Source of the DNA: Ianthella basta | Lineage: Eukaryota; Porifera; Demospongiae; Verongiida; Ianthellidae | DNA: 64,000 bases | NCBI GenBank assembly: GCA_964019415.1 | Contig: OZ025874.1 | Coordinates: 6,735,092-6,799,091 of the forward strand | Direction of reading: 5' to 3' | In this document: piece after piece, positions 7,750 to 44,693 of the stretch | Position numbering within the stretch: the stretch's first letter is position 1 | Layout: each line of letters opens with the position of its first letter | Position numbers and translations under genes: made by a program | Notes under the pieces: model-generated | What the model saw: the letters and a program-made list of their open reading frames with translations, nothing else | Told to the model about the DNA's origin: nothing | The model's database searches: none

Positions 7750-10700
7750 TTACTGTTTCCTCTGCCGTCTCTCCTCCAACAAAGCCCTCCCAATGTTGTC
7801 TGCTACATCACACCCTAGGCAGTCCCCCACTGCAAACAAGATAGTGGACCATGTGCGAGGGGATTCCCCTGTTCCCTTTGATTCCTGCAGCCAACACTCA
7901 AACATCTCCAGACAACATAGCTTCACATCATGTGAGTCTGTGGCTTTGAATGTCTTCAAAATGGCCGCCTCCATCCCCAAGAGGTCTCCTAGCTGGTGCC
8001 ACTTGTGGGCAACTGAAGGGATCAACTTCTTCAAGAGAAGTACAGCAGTGGGTTTGCTGCTGAGGAGCTCATCTCTGAGGGGGTCTGCCAAAGGTGAAGG
8101 AGTAGGTATAACTGTGGGAGGGAGGAGGTTGCACCTTTTAGTAAAATGGTACAGAATACAACACTACATTGTTAGTACAGTAGTACGAATATTACAGCGT
8201 ACCACAAGCAACCAGGGCTACTGCTCTGTTATGTGTAGGTGGCTAAGTTTGTTCCATGGTACAGAATACAACAGTTTGTATTACAGTGTGCCAGAAGAGT
8301 GTGTGTGCAGGTGGACAAGTTTGTTCCATTTTGACATGAAGCTGAAATGTGTGTAGGCACAACAAAACCTTAGCTTTCCTCACCTCCTTCCTTGGAATCC
8401 AGTCTTGCCCTGATCTGTTTGGCCACCTCTGGACCTACTGCCTCTCCCACCACATCAAGCACCGTCTCCCAGGAGCGGGGGAGGGACCCAGTGCCTGGCA
8501 ACTGCTGCAGCCACTGGTTGAACAGCTCACGGCAGCACACCTCAACACGGCCTTGCTCACTGGCAGCAATCACAGCACGCTTTTCATATGATACCTGCAA
8601 GTAGTCTGCAACCGCCTCCCACCGGGCGGCTGTAAAGGGGACCACGTGTTCCTGCATAGCAGCTAGTTCAGGGGGGCTCTGCAGAAGGGGAGTGAGACTA
8701 GAGGGTGTGACCTCACTACTCTGCAGACTGAACTGGATCCGCTCCACTACTACTGGGCCACATGTCTTCCTGATAGCCTCCAAGACAGCACCTTCCTCCC
8801 TCCTTTCCCTTCCAGTGTCACGGTCATGCCTCAACCAGCGTTGGAGGGACTCACGACAACATAGACCAGTTATTCTTTGCTTTTCAACCTTAATCACATC
8901 CAGTACTGTTGAGCTGATGCCCAGGTGCAGTGCAAAGTTGTACCAGTTCACTCCAACATAGTGCACTACATGGGAGATAAACTGGGGAGACAGCTGGGAT
9001 GAGGGAGGAGGGGGAGTGGCTCCTGTAGAATGAGGGGTTGCGGAAAAGCAGGAAGGCATTGTAACAGTACTATAAAAGGAGTGGTACACTTAGGGAAGTG
9101 TGCTTGTTGGGGGAAGTACAACTAACTGTGAAGGAAAGGCTCGTATGTATGTGCACAGTATATATAGTACACCTTTCATATATCCTGTACCAAGAACACA
9201 CATATCGCTGATGAGCTACAAAACCTGAACTCAAACTGCCAATACCAATAAATAGCATACCTGCATCTGCTGCACCAAGTTGACAATGAACACTTTGAAC
9301 TGTGGAGATTGGTTGAACCTGTTGGGGGGGGGGGGGGGTGGGTGGGGGGGCAATGTATGTATGACATGTCACATTGCAGATCATTCCCACATTGCTTAAA
9401 CTACAGGTGTACAATTTAACAAGCACTCCCTATAACCACTCAACTCACGTCACTGTCTTCAGTTGCAAGGACTTCTTGTGTCAGCTGATCCATTGCGTGT
9501 TTGGTCTCAAAATGGCCGAGTACCTCCAGCAGTGTCCTCCAGCTGGCTGCCTCATTGTGCTCCAACCAATACTGCAGAACTTTGCGAAACCTAACTCTAA
9601 TCTGAGGATGGTTATGTTCCAAACACTCTAACGTTGAAGTGGGAACTTTCAACAAAATGCCCATCTCTTCCCAATTCCCAAAGTCTACCTTTGGCAGCAC
9701 TACTCTGACAATGATGGCTAACTCTGGTCTCTGCGCCAATACTTTCTGCAGACGGATGTGTGACTCCTCTGTGACAGTTCCCTGCTCAGCTGTGGTGGTC
9801 TTCCCCAACACTTGACTAAGCACTGCCTGCAATGCCTGTTGTCCGATTGGACCAATGGAGGTCAACTGCATCAGCCCCTCATGAAGGCGAAGGATAGCTG
9901 GTCCGTGTTGCGACCTAATTTCTTCTGGGATGATCGACAAAACCCCATGTTTCCCTTCAGCTCTACTGATGATGGCAGCAGCCTCATCAAGTCCAAACTG
10001 TTCTGCCAGATCCAGGGGTGTCAGTCCATTGGGAAGGCACTCATTGAGAGTGTGGCGGAAGGAATCATTGGTTGCAAGGAAGTTGATCACTTCAGTGTAT
10101 TTGCGGCTGCTTAGTTTCATGCAATAGTGATGAAAGAATACACCCTTCATGCACATCATTGCAATGATGGCCAATTGAAGAGGGTTCAGTGCACACTTAG
10201 ACACTACTTGAAGAGTGTTGTCACATCTAAATTTAGTTGGAAATAGCTGCTTCAGTCGCCTGTAATACTGACCAGGCTCAGTGGGGGCTGTGAGTATTTC
10301 ACTTGCACATTCCAAAACCTCAACATCTCCATGTATTGCAGCCAAACATGCCAGTTTACTCATGTTGACCAGCTGGTGCTTGGAGAGGATGGAGAGGACC
10401 TTTCTCAAATTCTTTGGTTTATGCACCATATTCTTGAATATTTGAACGGCAAACAAGCGGAACTCAAACACAGAAATTGTATCACCATGCTCTGAAAATA
10501 AGTAAGGAGATGATATGTTAATGCCAAGCTCTTTACAGAGGGTGAAGTCAACAATCATCTTATCTGGTCTGCGACCTTGCCAGCTCGTATGCAACCTGCA
10601 AATATCGAATGCTGTTCCCAGCAATGGTGCTTCCACCTTTGCACTAGCGCCTAACTGCAGGAGTACTACAGCACACTGATCACGCCCACAGAAAATAGCA

Positions 10701-13700
10701 TAGTGCAATGGTGTTAGGCCAAAGGAATCTCTACGAGACACGCTAAACCCTCTAGCTGCCAACTGCACAAGCAATTGGACGTTTCCTCTAATTGCAGCAA
10801 AATGAAGCAATGTCATGCCATTTGTGGCCACCCCATCCACTGGAAAACCTTTTTCCATCAATGCTTGTACAGTTGACCACTGACCACGTCGCGCTGCTGC
10901 TAGTACAGGACCTCCCATGGTGCCACCAATGGAGGTTATATCTGCTCCATACCTGAGTAGCCTAGACACTGCCTTCTCTCCCCCCAGCCATGCTGCATAA
11001 TCTAGAGGAGTTTGGCCTTGACTGTCAGTACTATTCACGTCACACCCTCTACATACTAACTCCTCAATAATAGTAATATCACCACCGCCAGCAGCAAAAT
11101 GCAAAACACTGGCACCAATGCTGTCCTTTACTGCATCCACAGGACAGCCTGCCTTCAACAGTGCCTTCACAGTTGATGCACGACCATACAATGCAGCTTG
11201 GTGGAGTGGAGTTCCAAACTCACCAACAGTTATGGCCTTATCTGCCCCAAGTCTAATCAACTCCAGTGCTGCCTCAGTGGACCCATACACTGCTGCCATA
11301 TGCAGTGGAGTTGTACCATCACTGTCCGCCACATTAATGTCACAATTCCCGGTGCTCAGTACCTCTCCAATCACTTCAGTATTAACAGAACGAGTTGCAT
11401 AGTGCAAAATACTCTTACCATCACCTTTTACTGCATCCACAGGACAGCCTGCCTTCAACAATGCCCTCACAGTTGACACATGTCCACCCAATACAGCTAA
11501 AAGAAGAGGAGTGCCAAGCTTTGCAGAAACAATGGCCTTCTTTGCCCCAAGTCTGATCAACTCCAATGCTGTCTCTACCTTTCCACACATTGCTGCCACG
11601 TGCAGTGGTGTCATACCTTCATTGTTAGTTGCATTAACATCAATTTCACACCCAATACTCAACACCTCCTGAAGTAATCTGGTGTTGCCGCCTTCAGCTG
11701 CAGCATGCAATATACTCCCACCACAACCACCCATCACATCCACAGGACAACCTGCCTTCAACAATGCCTTCATAGTTGACACATGACCGCCCTTAGCAGC
11801 TTGATACAATGGAGTGCCTACTATATCAACATTTACAGCCTTCTCTGCCCCAAGTCTAATCAACTCTAATGCTGCTTCTGTCTTCCCATACGTTGCTGCC
11901 AAATGCAGTGGTGTTATACCATTATTGTCAGTTGCATTAATTTCATACCCTGGGCCAATACTCAACACCTCCTGAAGTATTCTAGCATTGCAACCTTCAG
12001 CTGCAGCATGCAAAATACTCCCACCCCTATTATCCACCACATCCACAGGACAACCTGCTTTCAACATCGCCTTCATAGTTGACACATGACCACCCCTAGC
12101 AGCTTGATACAATGGAGTGCCTACTGTATCAACATTTACGGCCTTCTCTGCCCCAAGTCTGATTAACTCCAATGCAGCCTCTGTGTTCCCCACTTTTGCT
12201 GCTGAATGCAGTGGAGTTGCACCCTTGTTGTCTGTCACATTCATGTCACACCCTGTACTCAACACCTCCCTTAACATCATTCCAGCACGTTCACAACCAG
12301 CTGCATAGTGCAAAACACTCTTGCCATCCCTAGTTACTGCATCCACAGGACAGCCTGCCTTCAACAATGCCTTCACAGTTGACACATGACCAGCATCTAC
12401 AGCTTGATGAAGTGGAGTACCCAATATATCAGCAACAATAGCCTTCTTTGCCCCTTGCCTAATTAACTCCAATGCTGCCTCAGTCTTCCCATGCATTGCT
12501 GCTAAATGTAGTGGAGTCCTACCATCATTAGCTAATGCATTAATGTCACACCCTGTACTCAACATCTCTCTAATCACTTTGACATTACCACCTATAGCTG
12601 CTGAATGTAAAACGCTCATACCAATGCTAGCCACAACATCCACTGGACAGCCTGCCTTCAACATTGCCTTCACAGTTGATGCATGACCAGCACCTGCAGC
12701 TTGATGAAGTGGAGTACCCAATATATCAGCAACTATAGCCTTCTTTGCCCCTTGCCTAATTAACTCCAATGCTGCCTCAGTATTCCCATGCATTGCTGCT
12801 ATGTGCAGTGGAGTCCTACCATCATTAGCTAATGCATTAATGTCACACCCTTTACTCAACACCTCTCTCATCACTTTGACATTACCACCTATAGCTGCTG
12901 AATGTAAAACACTGCCACCATCACCAGCCACCAAATCCACTGGACAGCCTGCCTTCAACATTGCCTTCACAGTTGGCACATGACCAAACCCTGCAGCTAG
13001 ATGTAGTGGAGTACCAAGCTTACCAGCAACTATGGCTTTCTTTGCCCCAAGTCTGATCAATGCCAATGTCGCTTCTGTCTTCCCAAGCATTGCTGCCGCG
13101 TGCAGTGGAGTCTCCCCAAGATTACTTGCTGCATTAATGTCACACCCGGTGCTCAACACCTTAATCAATTCAGCATTACCACTTTCAGCTGCATAAAACA
13201 AAGCACTCCTACCATCACTATCCACCACATCCACAGGACAGCCTGCCTTTAACATTGCCTTCACAGTTGACACGTGACCATTCAGTACAGCTTGACGAAG
13301 GGGAGTTCCTGCTGGACCAGCAACTATGGCTGTGTTTGCCCCATGTTTAATCAGCTCCAATGCCACCTCGGTCTTACCATTAGTTGCTGCTACATGCAGT
13401 GGAGTCAAACCATTATAGGCTGTTCTATTAATGTCACACCCTGTCCTTAACACTTCATTAACAATGTCAACATTGCCACCTATAACTGCAGAATGCAAAA
13501 CACTCTTACCATCACTAGCCACCATGTCCACTGGACAGCGTGCCTTTAGCAAAACCTTAACAGTAGTTGCATGACAGAATATCACAGCCTGATGAAGAGG
13601 AGTACCATATAAGCCACATACAGTGGATTTCTCTGCTCCTAGCTGTAGCAGTCGTACAACTGTTTGTGTGTGACCTCTTCCGGCAACAAGATGAAGAAGA

Positions 13701-13843
13701 GTAAGACCATCCAGGCTGTTAAGTCTTGCATTCACTGATAATCCATTCTTTAACACTAGCTCTATTAGCCTATCAAAGTCACCATTCATTATTAACATTA
13801 CTACATAATGCTCTATAAATTGCTGAACTGCCTGAGCTTCCAT
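7750..13843 (-). CDS. Ankyrin-repeat protein with four death domains (gene A)
   Basis: I read four coding exons, complement join(7750..8111, 8384..9022, 9261..9318, 9449..13843), giving 1817 residues. All junctions are GT-AG and phases agree (0, 1, 1). The start ATG is the one also used by gene C (Met-Glu-x-Gln). Exon 1 encodes about 30 ankyrin repeats (residues ~10-1030) arranged as a three-repeat supra-unit of about 100 residues with the markers TPLHxAA, KAMLKAGCPVD and EVLSTGCDIN. A degenerate ankyrin-like stretch follows (~1080-1330), then a first death domain (~1370-1460). Exon 3 encodes two more (~1497-1580 and ~1605-1695) and exon 4 the fourth (~1720-1805). There is no signal peptide, membrane segment or nucleotide-binding motif. 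Ankyrin and death domains are both protein-binding modules, so a cytoplasmic signalling scaffold is likely. Partners are unknown. Confidence 0.85.
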
Positions 13844-13849
13844 GGCCAC

Positions 13850-14930
13850 GCAATCTGTGCTCAGAAATTAACCTTTTTCTGCTTGCTTGCCACCTACGTA
13901 CAGTATGTACAATAGTTACAATATACATGCATTCCAGCAATCTTTACCATGCATGTGCACAAAGACTATATACATACCAGGTTGCTATACAGCCCATGCA
14001 GGTTAATCTATAGACCATTTCAAAATTACACCACCAAATCATGCACTTTGTTACAGCTGGCAGAAAACATGCATTCAATGTTAAAGATAGAGTTTATGGG
14101 TGTGTCACCAATTGTCAGTGGGCTACCACAGTAACTGTGACGTAGGATTCAGTAGTAGCTCCAGCAAGGAGCTCAGTTAACAACATGCAGTGAAAACAGT
14201 TTAGTGATGAGCAGGATTCTGGCTCAGACATTCTTTACATACAGAATGGAAATTAAGTGAACAAACCATAGCTCTGCTGTCATTTTGTGTCAGAGGATGG
14301 TTGACGGACCCTAAATGCGTGGATTGCTTCTGACCCATTTGTTTAGGACAGAATGATGTGGTAGCAACAATTAGGACAAGCCATTGGTCAGAGGTAAATG
14401 GCAGTAGACGGCAAACAAGCCGAGGAGAGGTATGTAGCTTATATACCGACTACACAGCAGTCTCTGAATCATGTGCCTTCAATGGAGGAAGACAGTATCT
14501 ATACACGACTTGTATGGCCCCCAGTATGAAGCAGGTTGTCAAGATGAAATAGAAACTGGTGGCTCTGGTAAGGGCTGACTGCCACACCTATATAGCTAGC
14601 TTGCAAAGTCAAGAATCTTAAAATAGCCTCAAAATAACTTATAGTATAGTGTCATACGTTACACAATACAAAATAAGTTTTCCAAAGGCACCCGAGGCTG
14701 TCCATTGCTAGCATGCCCAGATAGCTCCAAGGTAAATGACGGGTAATCATATATACTAGCGAGTACCTGCCACACAGTGGCGACAGCCCTCCAACGACAG
14801 TGATCCCACGACAGTGCTCCTCCCACAGCACTTCTATGATGGTGTTTCCAATGGTGACACACTGTAGTCATGGGCCCCAGGTAGACTCTGCCACTCCCAG
14901 TAACAGCTGGTGTAATAGCTCTTCTCTGTT
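13850..14930. promoter_or_regulatory. Upstream flank of gene A, shared with gene C
   Basis: The sequence just upstream of the start (for example 'ttaacctttttctgcttgcttgccacctac') and on to about 14750 is repeated at 44710-45570 upstream of gene C but not upstream of gene B. The promoter is presumably here. No clear TATA box or other motif was recognised. Confidence 0.45.
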
Positions 14931-14939
14931 GCTGCCTCA

Positions 14940-15365
14940 CCCTTGCACTTGTCCTTCTCTGGTCAGCATGTTGCTGCTCCTCCCTCCTCCTCCTGCCCCT
15001 CTCTGTCTCCCTCTCCCTGTCAGCATCTTGCTGCTCCTCCCTCCTCCTCCTGCCCCTCTCTGCCTCCCTCTCCCTGTCGCTTCTTGCTGCTCCTCCCTCC
15101 TCCTCCTGTCCCTCTCTGCCTCCCTCTCCCTGTCAGCTTCTTGCTGTGCCTCCCTCCTCCTCCTGTCCCTCTCTGCCTCCCTCTCCCTGTCAGCTTCTTG
15201 CTGTGCCTCCCTCCTCCTCCTTCCCCTCTCTGTCTCCCTCTCCCTGTCAGCTTCTTGCTGCTCCTCCCTCCTCCTCCTGCCCCTCTCTGCCTCCCTCTCC
15301 CTGTCAGCATCTTGCTGCTCCTCCCTCCTCCTCCTGCTCCTCTCTGCCTCCCTCTCCCTTTTCTT
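14940..15365. repeat. 57-bp minisatellite, pyrimidine-rich on plus strand
   Basis: About seven copies of a 57-base unit ('tcagcttcttgctgctcc' followed by CT-rich sequence). On the minus strand one frame encodes a 19-residue charged repeat rich in Arg, Glu and Gln (core REEQQEADRERE) within an open frame of 167 codons (14937-15440). The unit is a multiple of three, so all frames stay open. One copy near 15078 lacks a base and breaks the frame. Coding status is unproven. Confidence 0.8.
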
Positions 15366-15394
15366 TTGTCTTCTCCTTTTCACATTATAATATG

Positions 15395-15545
15395 GAAGAG
15401 CCCGCCTTCTGCAGGCTTCTACACTACGGCTCTCCTTCATTGCCTCTAGTGTAGCGCGTCACAAAGGAGCCCGCCTTCTGCAGGCTTCTACGCAACTGGC
15501 GCTCCTTCATTGCCTGTAGTGTAGCCCGCGAAAAACATGGCATCT
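15395..15545. repeat. Tandem pair of about 70-bp units
   Basis: The phrase 'agcccgccttctgcaggctt' followed by 'ctccttcattgcct.tagtg' occurs twice in a row. It borders the minisatellite. No function recognised. Confidence 0.6.
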
Positions 15546-15773
15546 TGTTCCCTAAAGGAGGGAATTCTTGCGGCCCTCCCCTTGGGCCCAGCGACTCCTC
15601 TTCAGTCTACCCCCTTATGACACTCTCCATATGTCGCCCCGTAATAATCCGGAGTTTCACGTGGATCGCACACACGCACGCTGCGGGAGAAGTGTTAATC
15701 TACTCGGTCGGACGGTCAGACGGACGGTCGAACAAGCACATTAATATATAGATTCATGCAAGTGTAGCTATAT

Positions 15774-16033
15774 ACTAGAAATAATAAAAATTTTCTACAA
15801 AAATTGTAAGAAAGTAGGAATGGCATAAAAAGGGCCGAAACAAGTCAAGGCTGTTACACAGTGGAGCATTAAGCATGGTCCCTACATGCAAGAAAGTCGC
15901 ACCGTATAGTCCTACACCCTTGAATGTAGGGACAATGGTTAATGCTCCACTGTGTAACAGCCTTTACTTGTTTCTGCCTTTTTTATGCCATCCCTACATT
16001 CTTACAATTTTTGTAGAAACTTTTATTTCTAGT
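15774..16033. mobile_element. Palindromic MITE, about 260 bp
   Basis: Inverted arms start CTAGAAATAATAAAAATTTTC and end with its near complement. The arms share 'ggcataaaaaggg', 'acaagt' and 'acacagtggagcattaa'. A worn relative lies at 30812-30985. There is no coding capacity. Confidence 0.75.
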
Positions 16034-16039
16034 TTCTGC

Positions 16040-17552
16040 ACTTTATATAGCGGGCAGCTAAGCTGAAGCAACACACTTAGTCTCAATCATAGGGCAATGG
16101 TACAGGCATATGTACCGCATTTCTGTAAACCTGGAGCTTAAAGTGAGGGCTAGCACCTAGGTTCTGCGCTAACCTACCGAAAAAAATACGGAAAAGGTGA
16201 CCAGAGGCCAACTGTGTAGTAATTAGAAAATGGCAGGGAAATGCACTACCGCGAATGTCCTTCAAATGGCGCAAAGCTATACCTTTGGCCTGGGATAGCA
16301 ACGAACGCACCTCCAATTGGACATATGGCAGCGTTGCTAGGCTATTGAACTAAATCTGAAGGAGGATTTGGTGAACCAATGTAGCCAAAGCATTCGGTAC
16401 ATCATGTTAAAATGGTGTCTCTTGCGTAGCAACGACTATCGAAGGCCTGGAAACCCTCATTTGTGAAACTTGTTTGCAGAGGTTTCTAACCTACAAAGGA
16501 ATACAGACAGTTTGAGGGCAAATTAAACTGTGGTAAAGGCTTCCTTCTACTCATTATGGTTCGTTCACTACTGCTGTCAGAGAATAAGAATAAGAAGACG
16601 ATACAGGGAAAATGTTGAGGCCGTTTTCTGCTGGAGCACACACTTTCGCAAAGAAGTAAGGTTAGCCCTGAGTTGTATGCAACACATACTTCCTCTTGGG
16701 TAGCCTTCTTTACCGGTTTTCAGCCCTATACAGAGATAGTGCTACTTTTCGTTTGTATTACAGCATACAAACAACGACTGCCATCCCTACATAGTCAACA
16801 CTACCGTGCTGTCTGATAACGCTACTGTGTGTGAATTCATATGAGAAACACAGTGCCCAAAAATTTAACACATCTAGTCTAAAAGGCATGCAGCAAGCAT
16901 TTGCACTAACATTCTGCTAATCTTTCTATGTACAAGTGCAACAAAAGAATAATTATTCATGTGTGAACATACGCAAGAACTTCAGACTTTGACTAACGAT
17001 ACAATACCAAAATAATATGTGGCTACGTTCAAGAACAAGAAGAAGATTGTTAACATCAACCGCGTTGTAGATGTCCGCCTAAAATAGTGAAAGGACTACG
17101 AAGAAATTTGTGTTGTTGTCATAGTTATCAATTGTATCTTAGTATCATTCATGCATAGGCCACAAATCTGCAATAATGATTGGCCACACAGCCATGCATA
17201 GAAGATCTGTGATTAGCTGCTTAGTTGCCCGGAGTCTGCTCCAAATTCCTTCATGGACACGTAAGAAAGGTTACATTTTCTGTGCCGCGTACCGTATTTC
17301 ATCAGTTTGGATACAGCAGATCTGTGCAATCTTGCAACTGCTATCAACCTTGGACAGTTGTTGTGTTTCACATTTATAAATAATGTATTACTTGACCTAG
17401 CTATAGGAATAGAGGCATGCAGCCATGGATTGATTTATGCCAGTCAATTGTCACATGACTTGAATATGAATATTGGAGGGCAGAGTCTCTCATGGTTTCT
17501 GCCAATATTTGCACATAAGACTAAACAGCTCTAATGTCAAATACGATCGTGC
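16040..17552. repeat. Gene-free DNA shared between tandem units
   Basis: 16370-16790 matches 31115-31560 in unit B (for example 'gaaggcctggaaac' and 'acagcatacaaacaac'). 16860-17550 matches 45640-46370 in unit C (for example 'aacttcagactttgact' and 'ggcagagtctctcatggttt'). Unit A therefore joins segments found separately in B and C. No exon recognised. Confidence 0.6.
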
Positions 17553-21239: not shown

Positions 21240-24700
<3,461 letters not shown>

Positions 24701-24731
24701 CCACATACAGGTACGTATATATGTAATTATG

Positions 24732-27700
24732 CTAATAACTATGACATCCCTCATCTCCAAGTGGGTCCACCGAAGGTGAGGGAGTGGGGGTAGCTGTGAG
24801 GGAGGGAGGAGGTTGGACCTGTCAGTTGACATAAACAGTACATTGCTACATTTTGTGTTACAGAGTGAGAAAGACAACGAGGACAATTGCCCTACACTTG
24901 CATGCAGGCAGCTACATATGTATGCCATTGCTACATAACAATGAATGTGCGTGCACACTAGAGCACCTTGGCTTTCCTCACCTCCTTCCTTGGAATCCAG
25001 TCTTGTCCTGATCCGTTTGGCCACCTCTGGACCTACTGCCTCTCCCACCACATCAAGCACCGCCCCCCAGGTGCGGGGGAGGGACCCAGTGCCTGGCAAC
25101 TGCTGCAGCCACTGGTTGAATAGCTCACGGCAGCACACCTCAACACGGCCTTGCTCACTGGCAGCAATTGCAGCTCGCTTCTCATATGACACTCGCAAGT
25201 AGTCTGCAACCTCCTCCCACTGGGCGGCTGTAAAGGGGACCACGTGTTCCTGCAGAGCAGCTAGTTCAGGGGTGCTCTGCAGAAGGGGGGTGGGACTAGA
25301 GGGTGTGGCCTCACTACTCTGTACACTGGACTGGATCCGCTCCACTGCTACTGGGCCACAGGCTTTCCTGACAGCCTCCAAGACCACACCCTCCTCCTTC
25401 TTTTTCCCTCCAGTGTCACGGTCAAGCCTCAGCCAGCGATAGAGGGATTCACGACAACAGTCACTTATCAGATGTTTTTCAACCTTAATCACATCCAGCA
25501 CTGTTGAGTTGACACCCAGGTGCAGTGCAAAGTTATACCATTTCACTCCAACGTGGCGCACTACATGGGAGACAAACTGGGGGGACAGTTGGGATGAGAG
25601 AGGCAGAGGAGTGGGAGTGGCTCCTGCAGAATGAGGGCAAGGGAAAGCATAATTATGTAAGGAACTGAAAGAGTACCAGCTGTGCATGACTAGACAATGA
25701 ATACTAAGTGACTTACCAACTTCTGGTGGATAAAGGTGAAAGGGTACACTGCGTCTCACAGAAGTGGACTGCCACTGTGGGATGGAAGTGAGTGCCTTTG
25801 TGTGAAAAACTACATTACAAAGCACAACTACACAGCTGAAATGCATTGAGTACCGACCAACAAGCACCTCATCCATCAACACAACTTGTTGCACTATCGG
25901 AGTAAGAATGTCTTGTGTGACTGCTAAATTACTGTATAGTTTAAGCAAACTGTGCATAAGGCTGTGCACAGACAAACTCACTGAACTATTTCCAATTCCA
26001 CAAATTTTCTGGGTCAATAGGTCCATTCTCAGTTTGGTTTCAAAATGGCCGAGTATCTCCAGCAGTGTCCCCCAACTGGCTGCCTTGTCATGCTCCAACC
26101 AGTAGATGAGGACCTCTAGGTACCTGTCCTCACAAGAGGAGTGGGTGGAGGAAATGTGGGTTAGGGCTTCTAGGGGGATTCTGAGTGAAATCCCTAAGCG
26201 CCGCCATCGTTCAACATTGACAAGACCAATGACATAAGTGGATATTACACTCAAGTCTGGCCTCTGGTCAAATATCTTCTGCTGACGGATGTATGACTCC
26301 TCGGTGGCTGTTCCCTGTTCAGCTGTGGTGGCCCTCCCAACTGACAACTGACCAACCCATTCCTGCACTGCCTGTGGTCCAAATGGACCAGACTTCAGCT
26401 GCATCAAAACCTGATGGTTGAGGACAGACTGCCTGTGTTGCCACCTAATTTCCTCTGGAATCAAGAACCGGCTCCCATTTCTCCCTCCAGCTCTACTGAT
26501 AATGGTGACTGCCTCACCCAATCCAAGCTCTTCTGCCAAGTCCAGAGGGCTCAGCCCATTGGGAAGCCATTCATTGAGGCTATGACAGAATGGGTCATTG
26601 GTGGTGAGAAAGTTAATCACTTCAGTATATTTGTTGCTGCTGTGATCCATGCAAATGTGATGAAGGCCCCCTCTGCACCACATAGCAATGACTGCCAATT
26701 GCAAAGGGTTCAGTTTACTCACAGGCAATATTTGCAAAATGTTGCTTGTGTGCTGTCTAAATTGAGCTGGAAATAGCTGCTTCAAGCGATCTGTGAAGTA
26801 CTGTGGCTCAGTGGCTGTGAGTATTTCACTCAAGCATTCCAAAACCTCCACATCTCCATGTATTGCAGCCAAACATGCCAGTTTACTTGGGTTAACTAGC
26901 TGGTGCTTTGAGAAGGTGGAAAGGACCTTTCTGAGGTTCTTTGGTGTTCTCACCAGGTTTCGTCGTGTTTGTAGCTTAATGCTGCTTCTCATGGTATTGA
27001 ACAAGATGAATTCAAACACAGAAATAATGGCACCCCCACGGTCAGAGAATAAGTATGGAGACTGTATTTTAATGCCAAGCTCCAGACAGAGGGCAAAGTC
27101 AACAATCATCTCATCTGGCTTTCGAACTGGTAGGAACACAGTACCACGCAACAAGCTTCCGGTGACTCGATATCCTAAAAGCCTTACAATATCCAACACT
27201 GTCCCAAGCAGAGGTGCTTCAGCCTTCTCATCAGCACCCAGCTTGATGAGTGCATTGAAACAAGGAAATTGTGCACAAAGAACAGCATAATGCAATGGTC
27301 TGAGATCATAGTAATCTCTTCGAGACACATTGCAACCTGTTTTTTTCAGTTGACAAAGTAACTTAATTTTCCCTCCCACTGCAGCCAAATGAAGTAGTGT
27401 CTGACCATCTGTGGTCACCCCATCCAAAGGAAACCCTTCTTCAAACATCACCTGCACGGTCTGCCAGTGGCCACGTGCTGCTGCTGATAGGACAGGATTT
27501 CCAAACGTGCCACCATCTGCATCTTTATCTGCTCCGTATCTGACTAGCATCCGCACTGTTTCTGTCTCCCCTCGGCTGGCTGCATAATCCAATGGAGTAT
27601 TATTTGCATTGTCCAAAGCATGAACACTACACCCTCTACCTAGTAACTCACCAATGACTTCAACATATCCATACTGAGCTGCAGCATGTAATACACTGCA

Positions 27701-30100
27701 GCCATTGCTAGCCACCTTATCCACAGGACAGCCTTCCTTCAACATTGCCCTTACAGTTGCCACATGACCAAACCCTGCTGCTTGGTGAAGTGGAGTACCC
27801 TTCAAACCAGCCACTACATCTTTCTTTGCCCCATGTCGAATCAGCTCTAATGTTGCCTCTGTGTGCCCCAACCTTGCTGTCACAAACAATGGAGTTTCAC
27901 CATAATTATCTGCTAAGTCAATAATGTCATTCCCGTCTGCACTCAAAATCTCTCTGATCACTTCCACACTGCCATTTTCTGCTGCAAAATGTAAAACACT
28001 GGAACTAGTGGTGGCCACCACATCCACAGGACAACCTGCTTCCAGCAAGGCCTTAACAGTTAACAAATGACCATACACTGCAGCTTGATGAAGTGGAGTA
28101 CCAAACCTACCAGCAACTACGGCCTTCTCTGCCCCTTGTCCGATCAACTCCAATGCAGCTTCAGTATGCCCATCCTCTGCTGCCCTGTGCAGCGGAGTCA
28201 CGCTATTAATGGCTGCTAGTACATTAATGTCACAACCTGTACTACACACCTCTCTAATCACTTCAGCATTGCCACATGCAACTGCAAAATGCAAAACACT
28301 GATACCTTGGCTACTCATAATATCCACAGGACAGCCTGCCTTCAACATTGCCCTCACAGTTGACACATGGCCATGCCTAGCAGCTTGGTGAAGTGGAGTA
28401 CCTGCTTCACCAGCAACTATGTCTTTCTTTGCTCCAAGTTTGATTAACTCCACTGCTGCCTCTGTACAACCATTTACTGCTGCTACATATAGTGGAGTCA
28501 AACCGTTCTTGTCTGCTGTGTTAATGTCGCACCCTGTACTACAGACAGCCCTTATCACTTCAACGTTACCACCTTGAGCAGCAGCATGCAAAACAATGTC
28601 ACCATTGCTATCCACCACATCCACAGGACAGCCTTTCTTCAACATTGCCTTCACTGTTGACACATGACCATGCAATGCAGCTACATGAAGTGGAGTACCA
28701 ATCTTATCAGTGACTATGGCCTTCTCTGCCCCTTGCCTCATCAACTCCAATGCTGCCTCTGTGTTCCCATTTACCGCTGCCACATGCAGTGGAGTTTTAT
28801 CGTGATTATCTTTAGCATTAATGTCACACCCAGTGCTCATGACCTCCCTAATCATTTCTGTATTGCAACTGTCAACTGCAGCATGCAAAACAGTGTAACC
28901 ATCACTAGCTGTAACATCCACAGGACAACCTGCTTTCAACATTGCCTTTACAGTTGACACATGACCAAACAAAACAGCTTGATGAAGTGGAGTACCACAT
29001 GTAACAGCAACTACGGCCTTCTTTGCCCCACGTCTTATTAACTCCAATGCTGCCTTAGTCTTCCCTTCCCCTGCTGCTACATGCAGTGGAGTCCCACCAG
29101 CAATGTCTTTCGTGTCAATGTCACACCCTGCACTCAACACCATCCCAATCACTTTAACATTATCACCTAGAGCTGCAGCATGCAAAACACTGTAACCAGT
29201 ACTCGTCATCACATCCACGGGACAGCCTGCCTTAAGCATTGCCTCCACAGTTGATGCATGACCACACAATGCAGCTACATGAAGTGGAGTACCTCTTACA
29301 GGCATCATGATGTTGTCTGCCCCACAACTTATCAAATATAGTGCTGCCTTTGTCTTCCCAGCACTTGCTGATACATGCAAAGGAGACCTGCCATCACAAC
29401 TTGTTGCATTAATGTCAAAACCTGTACTCAATACAATCCTAATCACTTCAGTGTCGCCGCTACGAGCTGCAGCATGCAAAACACTGCAGCCATTGCTGTC
29501 CACCACATCCACAGGACAGCCTGCCTTCAACATTGCCTTCACAGTTGACACATGACCACGCACTGCAGCTTGGTGAAGTGGAGTACCAACCTCACCAGCA
29601 ACTATGGCTTTTGCAGCCCCACGTTGAATCAACTGCAATGCTGCCTCAGTCTTCCCACGCACTGCTGCTACATGCAGTGGAGTCCTACCATCATTAGCTG
29701 CTTTATTAACATCACACCCTGTACTCAACACCACCCTAATCACTTCAGCATTACCACCTCCAGCTGCAAAATGCAAAACACTGCAACCATCACAACAAGT
29801 CACATCCACAGGACACCCAACCTTTAACAAAGCGGTAACAGTTGAAACATGACCATAAACAGCAGCTTGATGAAGTGGAGTACCAAATGCACCAGCAATT
29901 ATGGCTTTCCTTGCCCCAAGTCGTATCAGTTCCAAACCTGTTTCCGTGTAACCACCCCTAGCAGCTAAATGCAGAAGAGTACGGCCATCTTCCTGTGTAC
30001 AGTTTACAGATACGCCACGTGCAATTAATCGACAAAGTACATCTGTTAAACCACTGCTTGCTGAGAGTATAGCTAACTCATCCAGCTGCCTGTAGGCCAT
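24732..30100 (-). CDS. Ankyrin-repeat protein with three death domains, last one truncated (gene B)
   Basis: Coding exons are complement join(24732..24793, 24982..25623, 25717..25774, 25982..30100), 1626 residues, with junctions and phases (0, 1, 1) identical in pattern to gene A. The ATG at 30100 follows a possible acceptor ('ctaatttcag'), so a 5' UTR intron is likely. Exon 1 carries about eight three-ankyrin supra-units, the degenerate ankyrin stretch and death domain 1. The 58-base linker exon has the same length as in A and C. Exon 3 has two death domains with the same layout as gene A. The last exon begins like the final death-domain exon of A and C (Thr-Pro-Thr-Pro-Ser...Asp-Pro-Leu) but after about 15 codons runs into unrelated sequence and a TAG. 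A long open frame also reads through the introns into the CA repeat. I reject that version because the conserved splice sites agree better. Confidence 0.8.
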
Positions 30101-30104
30101 TTTC

Positions 30105-30399
30105 AGTAGAAGCCTGAAATTAGCAGAGAAAGCAATACAGCATTTGAAACAAACATGCGCACACCATGCTGAATACAATCTTCACAATTATAAGGCCAAC
30201 TACATGATTGTATGTATGCACTAACCCAAATTTAGTGCTAATCATGCAAACTCCATGCAATTACACACAGGTGAGGGCTAAACATGAAATGCACACTTGT
30301 TTCTTAGCTAACTGCTCCAGCATTTAGAAGATGACAGTGTGGGAGACGCATTTGTAGCTAGAGTGAATGTGTTGGCTGTCGTCAGTTGTCGTTCTAGTG
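30105..30399. promoter_or_regulatory. Upstream flank of gene B
   Basis: Unlike the upstream flanks of genes A and C, which resemble each other, so gene B may be regulated differently. No promoter motif was recognised. GTTCTAGTG at 30391-30399 is the left target duplication of the next element. Confidence 0.35.
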
Positions 30400-36530: not shown

Positions 36531-36534
36531 TGCA

Positions 36535-39217
36535 CCATCTGTGGAACAAACCTGGTCTGATCTGTGACTGCAAATAGTCCTACTCTGGTCTGGTAGGGAA
36601 TGCCTTCAAAGGAGAGCTGTAGGCAGGAGCAACAACAGATATTCCACGTTTCTGGTGCTGAGGTTCACATGTGTAACATGTGCCTTCTCTCATTAGTGTC
36701 TGCTTCAGGGAAGGGTACGAGGAGAAGAATTGACTCAGTGAGTCAGTCTCACTGGACATGCCCTTTCACAAAGCGAGTCCACTCAGGACTAGCAGGCTGA
36801 CTTAGCTCATTGCTTCATGAGAAGTACTCAATGGAAAGGTTGAGAGAGTGGTACTGTGGAACAATTAGAAGAGCGTCACATTCACTCATTGTCCACACAA
36901 AGGGAGTAAGAGGTACAAGACAAGTGGAATTCCAGCAGAGAGTGGGCTCAATATCTGCTTCAGGGAAGAGAATAGGGAGAACATTTGACACAGTGGGGCA
37001 TTTGCACTGAACACCCTTTTCATAAAGCCCCACATTCCTTCTGGAATGAGTCCATTAAACTCAGGGGAATCAGACTCACTCAGCTCATTAACTCATGAGA
37101 AGTACTCTTTGAAAGAGTTTAGTTAAGTGTAGAAAGATAATTAAGTGGAACAATTAGAAGAGCGTCACATACACTCACTGTTCACACAAAGGACCAGTGA
37201 AGTGGAAGGCCAGCAGAGATTAGGTTCACTTCTTTGCAGCAGCCTCTCCAAATAACAGGCAATGAGCACAGCTGTACCTTCACAGCTCAGCTACTCTTGT
37301 CTGTACTATGCACCATATGCACTTGGCTGGAATGTGATGTTTAAATGGCCATGACCTGGTCCAAGGGAGGGAGGAGGAGGAGGATACTTCAAGAACACCT
37401 TACAACATGCATACTCCTACAGTCTCCTGATTTAGACACACTACACACCATCACTGGATGGTCTGTAGATTCAAGTGGCTAAGACTTGGCTGTGACATTG
37501 TCTAGGGGTAGGCGGCAGACACAAAGCCCAATTGCAAGCTGAAGAGGGATGAAACATACATGGAAAGAAATAAGCTAACTCAATGCACATGTACACACAC
37601 ATGTACTCACACACATGTACACACGCACCTATGAAAACAGAAGAGATCTGCGGCAGCACTCAGAAATAGATATTAGAGTTCTGGGCAAAATGGAGGAGTT
37701 GAGGTATATAGCCAATCCCAAGTTGAGAGTGAAACACCTCACAGAGACCTGCTGCACACGTGTTGGAAGGGAGACAAGCACACACAGTAGTGGTAAATGG
37801 GTGGAAAGTCTATTCTGCATGACAAAGATTCAGCATTGTAGCATCCAAGAAGTGATAAACCAAACTAATTAAAGATGACACTAAAGACACCATCTATTAC
37901 ACAAACAAGAGAGGAAACAGATGTCCTCTCATACTAGTGTGAGAGAAATGGTCAAACAAGCACAATGCACAATCTGTGGAACAAACCTGGTCTGATCTGT
38001 GACTGCATATTGTCAGAATCTGGTCTGGTAGGGAATGCCTTCAAAGGAGAGCTGTACGCAGAAGCAGCAACAGATCTTCCACATTTCTGCTGCTGAGGTA
38101 CACACGAGTAACGTGTGCCTTCTCTTCATTAGTGTCTGCTTCAGAGAAGAGTACTGGAGAACAGTTGACACAGTGAGTCAGTTTCACATGCTTTCATAAA
38201 GCCAGGGTTTCCCTCTGAAAGTAGTCAATTCAATTCAGGACTAACAAGTTCACTTAGCTTATTACTTCATGAGAAGTACTCAGTGGTCCATTGGAAGAGT
38301 TGAGAGAGAGTTAGATTCACTCAGTGAAACAAATGGAAGAGCATCACATTCACTCATTGTCCACACAAAGGGAGTAAGAAGTACAAGAAAAGTGGGATTC
38401 CAGCAGAGAGTAGGTTAAAAATCTGCTTCAGTGGAGAGAATACAGGGAGATTTGACACAGTGGGCCATTTGCACTGGACACACCCTTTCATAAAGCCACA
38501 CTTTCCTTCTGGAATGAGTCCATTCAACTCAGGACTACCAGGGTCACTTAGCTCAATACTTCATGAGAAGTACTCTTTGAAACAGTTGAAAAGATTAATT
38601 ATGTGCAAAATGTTAATTCAGTGGAACAATTACAAGATCGTCACATTCACTCAAGCTCATTGTTCAAACAGTGGGTGCAAGAGGTATCAGAGAAGTGGAT
38701 GGCTAGTAGAGATTAAGTTCACTTCTTTGCAACAGCCTCTCCAAATAACAGGCAATGAGCACAGCTGTACCTTCACAGCTCAGCTACTCTTGCACCAGCT
38801 GCCTTTCTCAACAGAGATGAGGCACTACATTCACACTTTAACTCTCCCACACATGACTACTTTACTAAGTGGCATGTGGTGGGGCACCAGCAGTCAGGGG
38901 CCTGTTAAGAGTAGCTGTCTAGCCTGAGATCTGCATCCACAAAAGTGGAAGAGCACAGGTTCACTGGTGAGGGTAGGGGAAAGTAAACTGTGAGCATCTT
39001 TTTGGTTCAGGTTATGAGAGGTTCAGAAGAGATTGGGTTAAGAGTTTCTAGTTCAAGGATGGCAGTGGATTCTTGAAACAATGGTTGAACATTTCGATCA
39101 TTTGCACAATGCACGGGTCATCAACACAGCTTGTGTGAAGATTTCACACAGTGGGAGACACTGGAATGTGGAAACCATTTAAAAGAAAATGTTGGAGGAC
39201 TGAGGGTATAGATCACG

Positions 39218-39220
<3 letters not shown>
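36535..39220. repeat. Non-coding part of tandem unit C, rearranged
   Basis: Modules of 4995-7646 recur in a different order. 36535-37290 resembles 6205-7230, then 37295-37860 resembles 5560-6110, and from 37960 the 6205-7600 type follows again. Part of the block is therefore duplicated within unit C. No gene recognised. Confidence 0.6.

Positions 39221-39263
<43 letters not shown>
39221..39263. repeat. (CA)n microsatellite just downstream of gene C
   Basis: A short CA run ends immediately before the stop codon of gene C, in the position equivalent to 7647-7733. Confidence 0.95.
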
Positions 39264-39264
<1 letters not shown>

Positions 39265-39266
<2 letters not shown>

Positions 39267-42200
39267 ACTGTGTCCTCTGACGTCTCTCCTCCAACAAAGC
39301 CCTCTCAATGCTGTCTGCTACATCATGCCCTAGGCAGTCCCCCACTGCAGACAAGACAGTGGACCATGTACGAGGGGATTCCCCTGTTCCCCCTGACTCC
39401 TGCAGCCAACACTCAAACATCTCCAGGCAACACAGCTCCAAATTGTGAGATCCTGTGGCTGTGAATGTCTTCAAAATGGCCGCCTGTATCCCCAAGTGGA
39501 CCCCTAGTTGGTGCCACTTGTGGGCAACTGAAGGGATCACCTTCTTCATGAGAGGTACAGAAGTGGGTTTGCTGAGGAGGAGCTCGTCTCTGAAGGGGTC
39601 CACCAAAGATGAGGGAGTGGGGGTGGCTATATGGAATGGAGTGAGGAGGTCACATAGTACAGAACGAAGTTCACTTTCATAGTAATAAAGTTCACATGTA
39701 CACAGCAACACAAACAGACTCTGACCAGTTAAGGATAGTAATCAGATTACTATGAAGTACATATATATGTACGTACATGAGCCCTTTTCATTAGGCATTA
39801 ATCACCGCACACATGTACCTTTCCACTTGCGGCGGACTTCCACTTTGAGCCCCTCAATGTGCTGTACAGCAACACCAGCATATTCCATTGCACCAATGAG
39901 CATTCTCCATGTGGGGGTGTGACCGTGGTGACCCTCCCTCCATCTGTTGAGCCCGTCTTGGATTGCCGCTTCCTCATTCAAAGGGTTGTTCACATAGCAT
40001 GCCTCAATAGTCTCTGGAGGCAGCCCAAGTCCTTCCAGCACTGTGCCCTCCCCTTACCTGCAGCCTTTCTACTAACAAATGTTCTAAAGATGATGGAGCA
40101 ATCTTCATTCACTGAGAGGGAGGCAAATGGGGAATGGTGGCAGCAGTGAACTATGCATTTAGAGGTACTACGTACTGAACATCACTTTGTACACATGACC
40201 ACTTACAAAAAACAGTTTGAGAGAAGACAGGATCACTATCGTCTGGGATGAATTTAGGCTTCTCAAGTTGGGAGTTGACAGAGGATGATGGCGAGTCCTG
40301 ATGTATCTCTTGTAATGGAGCTGTATGTGGCACATTGGAGAGAAAGGTCACTGGTTGATATTGGTAGAGCAGATGCATATGTAGGTCAGATGTCACTACA
40401 TAATTATACATATAATTTATTGTATGTAACAGGGTAAAATGGAGGTAAAGAATCATTGTAGGAACCTACTACTTTCACTTGGATAGAGTAGTGAGGGTAA
40501 GCTTTGCATTCCAGGAATGCATTGTAGCTGTGGGGAAGAGTGCTTTCATGTGAGATAAATTACTTTAAACAATTAACACTTCAGCAAGTTAGAAGGCTCA
40601 CTTCACTGTCTTGAGTTGCAAGGACTTCCTGTGTCAGCTGATCCATTGTATGTTTAGTCTCAAAATGGCCGAGTACCTCCAGCAGTGTCCTCCAACTGGC
40701 TACCTCATTGTGCTCCAGCCAGTAGATGAGGACCTCCAGGTACCTGTCTTCACAGGAGGAGTGGGTGGATGAAATGTGGGTTAGGGCTTCTAGGGGTATA
40801 TTGAGGGAAATCCCTAAGCGCCGCCATCGTTCAACATTAACATGACCAATGACGTGAGTGGATATTATACTCAAGTTTGGCTTCTGGTCCAACACTTTCT
40901 GCTGGCGGATGTGTGACTCCTCTGTGGCTGTTCCCTGCTCAGCTGTGGTGGTCCTCCCGAACACTTGACTAAGCACTGCCTGCACTGCCTGTTGTCCAAT
41001 TGGACCAATGGAGGTCAACTGCATCAGCCCCTCATGAAGGTGAAGGATAGCTGGTCCGTGTTGTGACCTAATTTCTTCTGGGATGTTTGACAAAAACCCT
41101 TGTCTCCCTCCAGCTCTACTGATGATGGCAGCAGCCTCATCAAGTCCAAGCTGCTCTGCCAGGTCCAGGGGTGTCAGCCCATTGGGAAGGCACTCATTGA
41201 GGATGCAGCAGAAAGAATCATTGGTTGCAAGGAAGTTGATCACTTCAGTGTATTTGCAGTTGCTTAGTTTCATGTAAGAGTGATGAAAGAGTACATCCTT
41301 CATGCACATCATTGCAATGATGGCCAATTGAAGAGGGTTCAATTCACACTCAGACAATACTTGAAGAGTGTTGTCACATCCAAATTGAGTTGGAAATAGC
41401 TGCTTCAGCCGCCTGTAGTACTGACCAGGCTCAGTGGGGGTTGTGAGTAAATCACTCAAGCATTCCAAAACCTCAACATCTCCATGTATTGCAGCCAAAC
41501 ATGCCAGTTTACTCTTGTTGACCAGCTGGTGCTTGGAGAGGATGGAGAGGACCTTTCTCAAGTTCTTTGGTTTACGCAACGTATTCTTGAATCCTTCAAC
41601 AGCGAACAAATGAAACTCAAACACAGAAATGGTATCAGTATGCTCTGAAAATAAGTAAGGAGATGAAATATTAATGCCAAGCTCTTTACAGAGGGCAAAG
41701 TCAACAATCATCTCATCTGGTAGGCGACCTTGCCAGCTCGTATGAAACCCACAAATATCCAATGCTGTTCCAAGCAATGGTGCTTCCACCTTTGTACTAG
41801 CGCCCAACTGCATGAGTGCCATGATACACTCACAGCGCCCACATAAAATGGCATAGTGCAATGGTGTTAGACCAAAGCAATCTCTCCGAGACACACTAAA
41901 CCCTCTAGCTGCCAACTGCTCAAGCAATTGGACTTCTTTAATTGCAGCAAAATGAAGCAACGTCATGCCATCTGTGGCCACCCCATCTACTGGAAAACCT
42001 TTTTCCATCAATGCTTGTACAGTTGACCACTGACCACGTCTCGCTGCTGCTAGTACAGGACCTCCCATGGTGCCACCAATGGAGGATATATCTGCTCCAT
42101 ACCTGACCAGCCTAGACACTACCTCATCTCTCCCCAGCTGTGCTGCATAATCTAGAGGAGTTTGGCCTTCACTGTCAGTGCCATTCACGTCACACCCCCT

Positions 42201-44693
42201 GCGTACTAACTCCTCAATAATAGTAATATCACCACCACTAGCAGCAAAATGCAAAACACTGGCACCCATACTGTCCTTTACTGCATCCACGGGACAGCCT
42301 GCATTCAATAGTGCCTTCACAGTTGATGCACGACCAAGCAATGCAGCTTGGTGAAGTGGAGTTCCCCACCTACCAACAGTAATGGCTTTATCTGCCCCAA
42401 GTCTAATCAACTCCAATGCTGCCTCATCGAACCCATTTACTGCTGCCATATGCAGTGGAGTTGCACCATCACTGTCCACCACATTAATGTCACAATTCCC
42501 GGTGCTCAGTACCTCCCTAATCACTTCAGTATTATCAGAAACAGCTGCATAGTGCAAAATACTCCTACCATCACCTTTTACTGCATCCACAGGACAGCCT
42601 GCCTTCAACAATGCCTTCACAGTTGACACATGACCAGCCAATACAGCTAGAAGAAGAGGAGTGCCAATCTCTGCAGAAATAATGGCCTTCTTTGCCCCAA
42701 GTCTGATCAACTCCAATGCTGCCTCTGTCTTCCCATGCAATGCTGCCAAATGCAGTGGTGTCATACCATCATTGTCAGTTGCATCAATGTCACACCCTGT
42801 ACTTAACATCTCCTTAATCATTCCAGCATTACTACCTTCAGCAGCTGCAAAATGCAAAGCACTCCTACCCTTGCTATCCACCACATCCACAGGACAGCCT
42901 GCCTTCAGCATTGCTTTCACAATTGACACATGATCACACGGTATAGCTACATGAAGTGAAGTCGCTGTTACAGTACCAAACCCACCAGCAATGACCTTGT
43001 CAGCACCATTTCTGATCAACTCCAACATTGCTTTGGTCCTCCCATTACATATTGCTACATGTAATGGAGTCTGACCAGCATTGTTAGTCGCATTAATGTC
43101 ACACCCTGTACTCAACACCTCCCTAATCACTTCAACGCTATCACCATCAGCTGCAGCATGCAAAACACTGTTACCATCACTATCCGCCACATCCACAAGA
43201 CAGCCTGTCTTCAACAATGCCTTCACAGTTGACACACGACCACAAATTGCCGCTTGATGAAGTGCAGTACCATGAGTACCAGCAACTATGGCTTTCTCTG
43301 CCCTATGTCTGATCAACTCCAATGCTGCCTCAGTCTTCCCATGAGCTGCTGCTAAATGCAGTGGAGTCCTACCATCATTAGCTAATGCATTAATGTCACA
43401 CCCTGTACTCAACACCTCTCTAATCACTTCAACATTGCCACCTATAGCTGCTGAATGTAAAACACTCATACCAAAACTATCCACTGCATCCACTGGACAA
43501 CATTCCTTCAACATTGCCTTCACAGTTGACACATGACAACCTTGTGCCGCAAAATGAAGTGGAGTCCCAACTAGATTAAAAACCATGGCTTTCCTTGCCC
43601 CAAGTCTGATCAACTCCAATACTGCCTCTGTCTTCCCATACATTGCTGCCGCATGCAGTGGAGTCATCCCAAATACATCTGTTGCATTAATGTTGCACCA
43701 TGTACTCAACACCTTAATCACTTCAGCATTACCACTTTCAGCTGCACAAGACAAAACACTCCTACCACTGCTACTCACCACATCCACAGGACAGCCTGCC
43801 TTCAACATTGCTTTCACGGTTGATACATGACCATTTTGTGCAGCTAGATGAAGGGGAGTACCAAGACTGCCAGCAACTATGGCTGTGTTTGCCCCTTGTT
43901 TAATCAGCTCCAATGCCACCTCAGTCTTCGCATTAGCTGCTGCTACATGCAGTGGAGTCACACCATTATAGCCTGTTCTATTAATGTCACACCCTGTATT
44001 CAATACCTCCCTAATCACTTCAGTACTATCACCTTCAGCTGCAGCATGTAAAACACTGTTACCATCACTATCCACCACATCCACAGGACAGCCTGCCTTC
44101 AACATTGCCTTCACAGTTGACACATGACCACCTACTGCCGCTTGATGAAGGGGAGTTCTAAATGGACCAGCAACTATGTTTGTCCTTGCCCCATGCTTAA
44201 TCAGCTCCAATGCTGCCTCAGTCTTCCCATGCATTGCTGCTACATGCAGTGGAGTCACACCATTATAGGCTGTTCTATTAATGTCACACCCTGTCCGTAA
44301 CACTTCATTAACAATGTCAACATTGCCACCCATAACTGCAGAATGCAAAACACTCTTACCATCACTAGCCACCATGTCCACTGGACAGCGTGCCTTTAGC
44401 AAAACCTTCACAGTTGATATATGACAGCATTCCACAGCCAAATGAAGAGGAGTACCATATAAGTCACATGCAATGGATTTCTCTGCTCCTAGTTGTAGCA
44501 GTCGTACAACTGTTTGTGTGTGACCATTTGCAGCAACAAGATGAAGAAGGGTAAGGCCATTCAGGATGCTAAGTCTCGCATTCACTGATAATCCATTCTC
44601 CAACACTAGCTCTTTTAGCCCATCAATGTCACCATTCATTATTAACATTACTGCTAAATGCTCTATAAATTGCTGATCTGATTGAACTTCCAT
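39265..44693 (-). CDS. Ankyrin-repeat protein with a different death-domain tail (gene C)
   Basis: Coding exons are complement join(39265..39626, 39819..40040, 40207..40320, 40470..40527, 40602..44693), 1615 residues. The ATG matches that of gene A. Exon 1 has about eight three-ankyrin supra-units, the degenerate ankyrin stretch and death domain 1. The 58-base linker exon and the final 362-base death-domain exon keep the lengths seen in gene A. Between them, the two-death-domain exon of A and B is replaced by a 114-base low-complexity linker exon and a 222-base exon with another death-domain-like segment (LGLPPETIEACY...TPTWRMLIGAM). All these exons begin and end in phase 1. The 222-base exon lacks a clear first helix. 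A frame with such a helix lies just upstream (40111-40040) but is out of register by one base, so the domain may be damaged or my acceptor may be wrong. Confidence 0.78.

Follow-up and report, generated by a model that had tools for sequence, protein, structure and literature searches.

An expanded ankyrin and death-domain gene family in the sponge Ianthella basta, a possible NACHT-free repertoire of recognition receptors

How early animals, without adaptive immunity, distinguish self, symbiont and pathogen is an open question, and it is raised anew by a 64,000-nucleotide (nt) stretch of the 209-Mb, 96-contig genome of the sponge Ianthella basta (contig C7, positions 6,735,092-6,799,091; hereafter the window), in which three minus-strand genes, A, B and C, combine long ankyrin arrays with death domains. 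What could such genes be for, and are they peculiar to this stretch? The first-pass annotation had read them as a tandem triplet, but the three genes turned out to be part of a 13-locus run on C7, within a family of at least 102 loci. We consider it fairly probable that A, B and C are members of a lineage-expanded family of ankyrin-death-domain recognition receptors, probably cytosolic, in which the binding face of the array is clearly the fast-changing part.

The ankyrin array, its family and its binding face

The giant open reading frames of the three genes, at 9440-13867 (A), 24635-30181 (B) and 40581-44717 (C) on the minus strand, match the Pfam family Ank_2 with E values of 5.9e-163, 7.8e-149 and 4.9e-156, respectively, and Tandem Repeats Finder reports a 297-nt period in every giant exon (scores 1950, 1666 and 1840). 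The repeating unit of 99 amino acids (aa) holds three ankyrins and is present in 9, 8 and 8 full copies, with partial copies at either end, as had been proposed from the letters alone (8-9 units, ~300 bases). The further Pfam matches, BamE in A (residues 462-488, 29.4 bits with a cut-off of 23.2) and Ank_KRIT1 in B, sit within the array. In the AlphaFold model the last units of gene A form an ankyrin solenoid, and the predicted local distance difference test (pLDDT) score is 63-93 by block across residues 1-470; Foldseek places this model nearest to the designed ankyrin repeat protein (DARPin) construct 6mol (E 1e-23), with ankyrin-B next. The degenerate ankyrin stretch that follows the array weakly resembles designed ankyrins (best E 0.0075, with a 26-member profile). 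When two units of gene A were compared at close range with bacterial and archaeal sequences, the relatives found were L052, from a metagenome-assembled genome (MAG) of Verrucomicrobiae, at 38% identity and L053, from an Eremiobacterota MAG, at 32%; a bacterial origin of the array, with just these two weak relatives within the close range that the search reaches, was set aside.

Beyond the window, a query made of the degenerate ankyrin stretch and first death domain (DD1) of gene A gave at least 106 matches out of 151 candidates, which merge into at least 102 loci; clusters with no fewer than three members account for 95 of these. The clusters hold at least 26, 13, 21 and 3 loci on C1, 13 and 5 on C7, 7 on C22, 4 on C3 and 3 on C15, and the 13-locus C7 run to which A, B and C belong is counted in merged loci, some of them partial. 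A stop codon was found in 6 of the 106 matches, and for 60 the surrounding frame spans at least 900 residues. On C7, each of the ten giant exons examined (those of A, B, C and P1-P7) is open, with 3 to 10 full units. The giant exons on C22 (L025+L047, L027+L048, L029+L049, L026+L050 and L023+L051) seem to start in mid-ankyrin after a common QAAPLSI stretch, so that an upstream coding exon is likely there.

If the arrays bind ligands, their variation should be read against the surface of the ankyrin fold. Across the 50 canonical units of C7, amino-acid entropy is highest at columns 7, 15, 40, 48, 49, 71, 72, 81 and 82, which are turn tips and ends of inner helices. To avoid a post hoc choice of positions, we took the surface classes (concave, convex, core and basal) from Table 1 of Utges et al. 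2021 (PMC8415598), which, in the sections used here, describes the concave face as the one with which ankyrins mainly bind proteins and as depleted in missense change in human variation. The C7 set consists of 50 of 68 full units, the 18 that do not end in CPVD, CPLD or CLVD having been dropped, and the C22 set of 48 units with at least 94 aligned columns and a final D. By the counting method of Nei and Gojobori (NG86), the ratio of nonsynonymous to synonymous substitution (dN/dS) at concave positions is 1.22 (interval 1.08-1.37) in C7, 1.29 (1.09-1.51) in the 22 window units within that set and 2.55 (1.91-3.46) in C22. In the same order, the ratio is 0.35, 0.37 and 0.43 at convex positions, 0.32, 0.33 and 0.14 in the core, and 0.40, 0.45 and 0.84 at basal positions. 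Maximum likelihood (ML), fitted with scaled branch lengths (the C22 core fit, stuck at its starting values, is not used), puts the C22 concave class at 3.95, with a doubled log-likelihood difference (2dlnL) of 31.7 from a dN/dS of 1. For 12 sites picked on the other clusters, the test on C7 gave 1.48 (1.22-1.81) by NG86 and 1.81 by ML (2dlnL 13.4). Random sets of eight ankyrin positions reached the C7 concave dN/dS in 18 of 20,000 draws, and in none of 20,000 did they reach the concave proportion of nonsynonymous differences (pN), either in C7 or in C22. A dN/dS above 1 at the positions expected to contact ligand is therefore firm in C22, where both methods give it, and supported but uneven in C7, where it comes from NG86 and from ML at the cross-chosen sites.

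The arrays also change in length, and they grow by in-frame unit duplication. The neighbouring units A3 and A4 are 7.5% apart, and both have the same unit as nearest counterpart in gene C (C4, 12.6% from A4), which points to a recent duplication; the end units of A and C pair at 7-9%, and the middles of the arrays need additional changes. In the C22 gene Q25 a five-unit block is repeated nearly unchanged, and in Q29 two unit types partly alternate. The unequal exchange with changing array length that the first-pass annotation had expected is borne out by the A3/A4 duplication and the Q25 block. By eye, the C22 arrays are more homogenised than those of C7, for which strong within-gene concerted evolution was rejected: the unit most similar to a given one belongs to the same gene in 11 of 73 cases, against 7.1 expected from a random draw.

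Exchange reaches across genes as well, in that the DD1 core has been exchanged between otherwise different paralogues. Outside this core, gene C is 0.79-0.94 identical to gene A per 40-column block, and within it C is 0.50 identical to A and 0.78-0.90 to B; the core of gene A in turn is 0.90-0.95 identical to that of P1. Accordingly two types of core can be told apart, alpha in A and P1 and beta in the remaining eight of the ten C7 genes (L011 is also concerned). Gene conversion is the best explanation of the mosaic.

Gene models and death domains

All three genes share a layout in which a giant exon, holding the array, the degenerate stretch and a death domain, is followed by a 58-nt linker exon and then by further exons (Table 1). 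Joining its four exons gives gene A a product of 1817 aa that holds four death domains; for gene B, likewise of four exons, the product has 1626 aa and three death domains. Neither chain has an internal stop. In gene C the candidate chain of giant exon, linker, three exons of its own and DD4 exon is compatible in all its phases, this being a check of phase and not a joined translation; it is without a DD2-DD3 exon, and its supported death domains are DD1 and DD4. The up to four death domains expected at the outset are all seen in A, while the fourth-domain exon of B is truncated. The linker shifts the phase from 0 to 1 and later internal exons are of phase 1-1, so that the frame survives the addition or loss of a death-domain exon. 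The joining of the exons appears supported by their phases and by a similar 58-nt exon at other loci: one flanked by splice signals and located where it would be expected, chosen by eye among 58-nt candidates, was seen in A, B, C and 16 of 22 other loci, C22 included. This recurrence is the best substitute for RNA evidence in the present analysis.

The death domains themselves are recognisable, which places the proteins in the death-domain superfamily and agrees with the ankyrin and multi-death-domain architecture of the first-pass annotation. Pfam Death matches the giant exons with E values of 1.3e-5 (A), 2.2e-10 (B) and 3e-4 (C, slightly under the Pfam cut-off), and at E<=0.01 it matches the DD1 region in 26 of 26 members scanned (26 of 30 loci, L024, L027, L029 and L036 being omitted and L009 represented by the window). 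The DD2-DD3 exon is matched at the same threshold in 16 of 16 loci, all picked as carriers of it, and its profile finds FADD as best PDB match, covering DD2 (E 7.4e-4). The search of the C-terminal exons with death-domain profiles, named at the outset as a test of the architecture, thus found death folds in the DD2-DD3 exon, but single C-terminal death domains scanned alone fall under the Pfam cut-off; the DD1 and tail-domain profiles detect one another, in small test sets. In the stretch examined, the DD2-DD3 pair was not seen in gene C, L020, L021, L032, L034, L035, L037 or L038. The 222-nt exon of gene C, death-domain-like by eye, has no Pfam match and is found by profile only when its own sequence is included, and it was withdrawn as a death domain. 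The DD2-DD3 tail is under constraint, with a dN/dS of 0.40 in C7 (9 loci) and, more mildly, 0.71 in C22 (7 loci), among 22 loci that, like the 16 above, were selected for having the DD2-DD3 exon.

Table 1. Exons and domains of genes A, B and C, in window positions
Gene	Feature	Positions	Strand	Remarks
A	giant exon	9449..13843	-	assumed ATG to phase-0 donor GTGAGT
A	array	10835..13525	-	9 full 99-aa three-ankyrin units
A	DD1	9452..9751	-	alpha type
A	linker exon, 58 nt	9261..9318	-	phase 0 to phase 1; candidate, from splice signals
A	exon 3	8384..9022	-	DD2 (8712-9017) and DD3 (8388-8708); phase 1-1
A	exon 4	7750..8111	-	DD4 and stop
B	giant exon	25982..30100	-	
B	array	27422..29800	-	8 full units
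B	DD1	25988..26278	-	beta type
B	linker exon, 58 nt	25717..25774	-	candidate, from splice signals
B	exon 3	24982..25623	-	DD2 (25310-25612) and DD3 (24986-25306)
B	last exon	24732..24793	-	truncated remnant of DD4 exon, early stop
C	giant exon	40602..44693	-	
C	array	41985..44375	-	8 full units
C	DD1	40605..40898	-	beta core within A-like gene
C	linker exon	40470..40527	-	candidate, from splice signals; 58 nt with donor GTAGGT (alternative: 55 nt, donor GTAGTA)
C	gene-specific candidate exon	40207..40320	-	phase compatible
C	gene-specific candidate exon	40058..40111	-	phase compatible
C	gene-specific candidate exon, 222 nt	39819..40040	-	death-domain-like by eye; profile does not confirm
C	last exon	39265..39626	-	DD4 and stop

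Elsewhere in the genome, among the matches listed (150 of 437 candidates), death-domain exons form dense clusters on C6 (9.05-9.39 Mb), C3 (4.58-4.75 Mb) and C12 (2.9-3.04 Mb), and several of those on C3 lie in open frames of ~1000 residues or more. The mitochondrial COX1 gene has to be translated with TGA as tryptophan and resembles that of a demosponge. The window also holds minisatellites at 14962-15359 (57-base unit), 49976-51028 (36), 51678-51915 (14/94) and 63778-64000 (31). An open frame at 62643-63332, with a weak Pfam match to a cytomegalovirus protein (E 3e-4, below the cut-off), overlaps tandem repeats of 11, 22 and 44 bases and is probably low complexity.

Recognition receptors and the rival explanations

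In the mechanism that we propose, the 99-aa units would stack into a single long ankyrin solenoid, the turn-tip and inner-helix residues of which would form a concave binding face. In at least one cluster the fast change of this face is under diversifying selection, and the core and convex positions are kept constant. New specificities could arise from substitutions at concave positions, from in-frame duplication of units or blocks and from exchange between paralogues. Binding of a ligand, presumably non-self, would then cluster the C-terminal death domains, of which DD2 is nearest to FADD, into a death-fold signalling assembly, with cell death or an NF-kappaB-type response as the output. The immune role, which otherwise stands by analogy, gains indirect support from the fast change on the ligand-binding face. 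In two other sponges, genes with ANK and DEATH domains are up-regulated after exposure to microbe-associated molecular patterns, according to the part of PMC6208332 cited here. A more far-reaching idea, which we put forward tentatively and think somewhat less probable than not, is that of a natural DARPin library: an animal repertoire free of NACHT, in which three-ankyrin paratope cassettes are duplicated and shuffled within and between ~100 genes ahead of a common death-domain tail, so that the sponge would inherit a large set of cytosolic non-self receptors, which may vary between individuals.

Several observations weigh against the view of the family as recognition receptors. The whole C7 concave class, fitted by ML, has a dN/dS of 0.875 (2dlnL 1.3), indistinguishable from 1, and in the most recent gene pair, P2/P5, the ratio is 0.99 at 21 a-priori positions, 0.66 at the 12 core ones and 0.27 elsewhere; the colinear A/C pairs of the same comparison were picked by nearest-neighbour order. 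The small sets give concave values of 1.18 (C1, 11 units) and 1.20 (C7 at 3.1/5.4 Mb, 7 units) with intervals that span 1; ML leaves the C22 basal positions unconstrained as well (1.07); random position sets reach the C22 concave dN/dS in 1056 of 20,000 draws, because dS is small there; and recombination of units weakens tree-based tests. AlphaFold gives a pLDDT below 50 to the degenerate part and DD1 and to nearly everything past residue 470, and 51 to the death-domain exon, and we draw no structural claim from either. The cytosolic location is the softest part of the mechanism, as in-frame hydrophobic stretches precede the assumed ATG in P2 and P5 and, in the C22 genes, the array; we take these as putatively non-coding.

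The near-neutral ratios in C7 by ML (0.875) and in P2/P5 (0.99) would suit a family of non-immune scaffolds, in which ankyrin-death-domain adaptors undergo tandem birth and death with a relaxed binding face and no recognition role. The numerous members and the mild constraint on the C22 tail (0.71) would fit as well, but relaxation does not yield a dN/dS of 2.5-3.9 in C22 or 1.8 at the cross-chosen C7 sites, and just 6 of 106 matches hold a stop; we therefore regard this explanation as unlikely, though one to be taken seriously. The outright absence of function, in a decaying or misassembled repeat cluster, is hardly credible: tandem repeats do misassemble easily and the DD4 exon of gene B is truncated, but the ten C7 giant exons are open, their core positions are constrained, and a similar linker exon recurs on other chromosomes.

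Other rivals keep recognition and change the ligand. The family could encode allorecognition receptors for fusion or rejection, reading variable self proteins of other individuals and not microbes, and the diversifying regime of fungi does cover heterokaryon incompatibility receptors in the passages used from PMC4986451, while sponge allo-incompatibility is mentioned in those of PMC8195603. However, Pfam found no extracellular or transmembrane domain in the exons scanned, so that the molecules of another individual would have to be met through cell fusion or by way of a secondary signal, and ~102 dispersed loci are many for one histocompatibility locus; this makes allorecognition improbable in our judgement. 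Sponges harbour dense symbionts, many of them ankyrin-rich, and receptors for tolerance or symbiont management might read microbial or symbiont proteins without killing. Yet two loci, at 38% and 32% identity, were all that the close-range bacterial and archaeal search with two units of gene A brought up, and we give such a role a slightly smaller chance still. Under the recognition-receptor reading that we prefer, the family names both candidate receptors and candidate contact residues, which can be tested in one species.

Comparison with known systems

Proteins in which ankyrin repeats precede a death domain are known: ANKDD1A/B, DAPK1, NFKB1 and the canonical ankyrins. To our knowledge each of these is a conserved single gene whose product has one death domain, and none has a 99-aa unit or has expanded in this way. 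No Pfam match to a kinase, ROC-COR, RHD or ZU5-UPA was found in the giant exons, the C-terminal parts of members or the DD2-DD3 exons, and the ZU5-UPA that marks canonical ankyrins between ankyrins and death domain is accordingly not seen. The supra-repeat with several death domains had been called a combination without a named family, and judged by titles and the openings of abstracts among open-licence papers in PubMed Central (PMC) we found no report of this exact architecture, but relatives in a wider sense exist in Amphimedon and in fungi.

The family does not have the build of an NLR, as no NACHT or NB-ARC was found and the repeat sensor is not C-terminal but lies N-terminal to the death domains. 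By Pfam, NACHT is absent from the giant exons and from ten other open reading frames of the window, and no NACHT match on C1, C7 or C22 is among the matches listed (102 of 469 candidates), so that the family appears to lie apart from the NLR clusters. The NACHT repertoire of the genome is itself large (at least 102 matches among 469 candidates) and sits on C4, C5, C8, C10, C17 and C18, largely as tandem clusters. On C10, two of the NACHT frames stay open over 2224 and 3877 residues.

Two other systems share part of the principle. DARPins, in the descriptions drawn on here, likewise set variable surface positions, which are randomised, into a consensus ankyrin frame, but they are synthetic and built from a single-repeat module, against the three-repeat unit of the sponge family. 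The ROCO receptors of brown algae (Teng et al. 2024, PMC11378527) resemble it in shuffled repeat units and diversifying selection, as far as the cited part goes, but their leucine-rich repeats (LRRs) lie on separate exons and are joined to a ROC-COR GTPase, LRR-ROC-COR being the only domain structure named there.

By its parts, the closest animal relative is the expansion of Death-like/TRADD-N/ankyrin proteins in Amphimedon (Kaur et al. 2021, PMC8195603), in apparently the same phylum, which in the sections cited is also lineage-specific, also combines death-fold domains with ankyrins, and has ankyrins that are proposed to recognise invaders. In those proteins one to three death-fold domains are N-terminal, TRADD-N comes next and the C-terminal part is variable, so that the order in the Ianthella family is reversed. 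No Pfam match with a TRADD-N name was found in the giant exons of A, B and C (E<=0.001) or the C-terminal parts of 26 members (E<=0.01), and Pfam may hold no suitable model.

The closest functional precedent is that of the fungal NLRs with highly similar ANK, TPR or WD repeats, as in Podospora (Dyrka et al. 2014, PMC4986451). In the portions of that paper used here, these share with the sponge family internally similar repeats, changing repeat numbers and large families, and the ANK repeats of Podospora NLRs show mostly concave positive selection and signs of concerted evolution; high internal conservation of this kind is given for 0.8% of metazoan ANK, TPR and WD repeats. The paper uses an identity criterion of 85%, which the sponge arrays may or may not reach. 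The fungal receptors carry NACHT or NB-ARC with fungal effector domains and have their repeats at the C-terminus, whereas the sponge family has N-terminal ankyrins in a three-repeat unit, C-terminal death domains and an animal host. If the recognition-receptor reading holds, repeat diversification of the fungal NLR type can occur in an animal without the NACHT engine.

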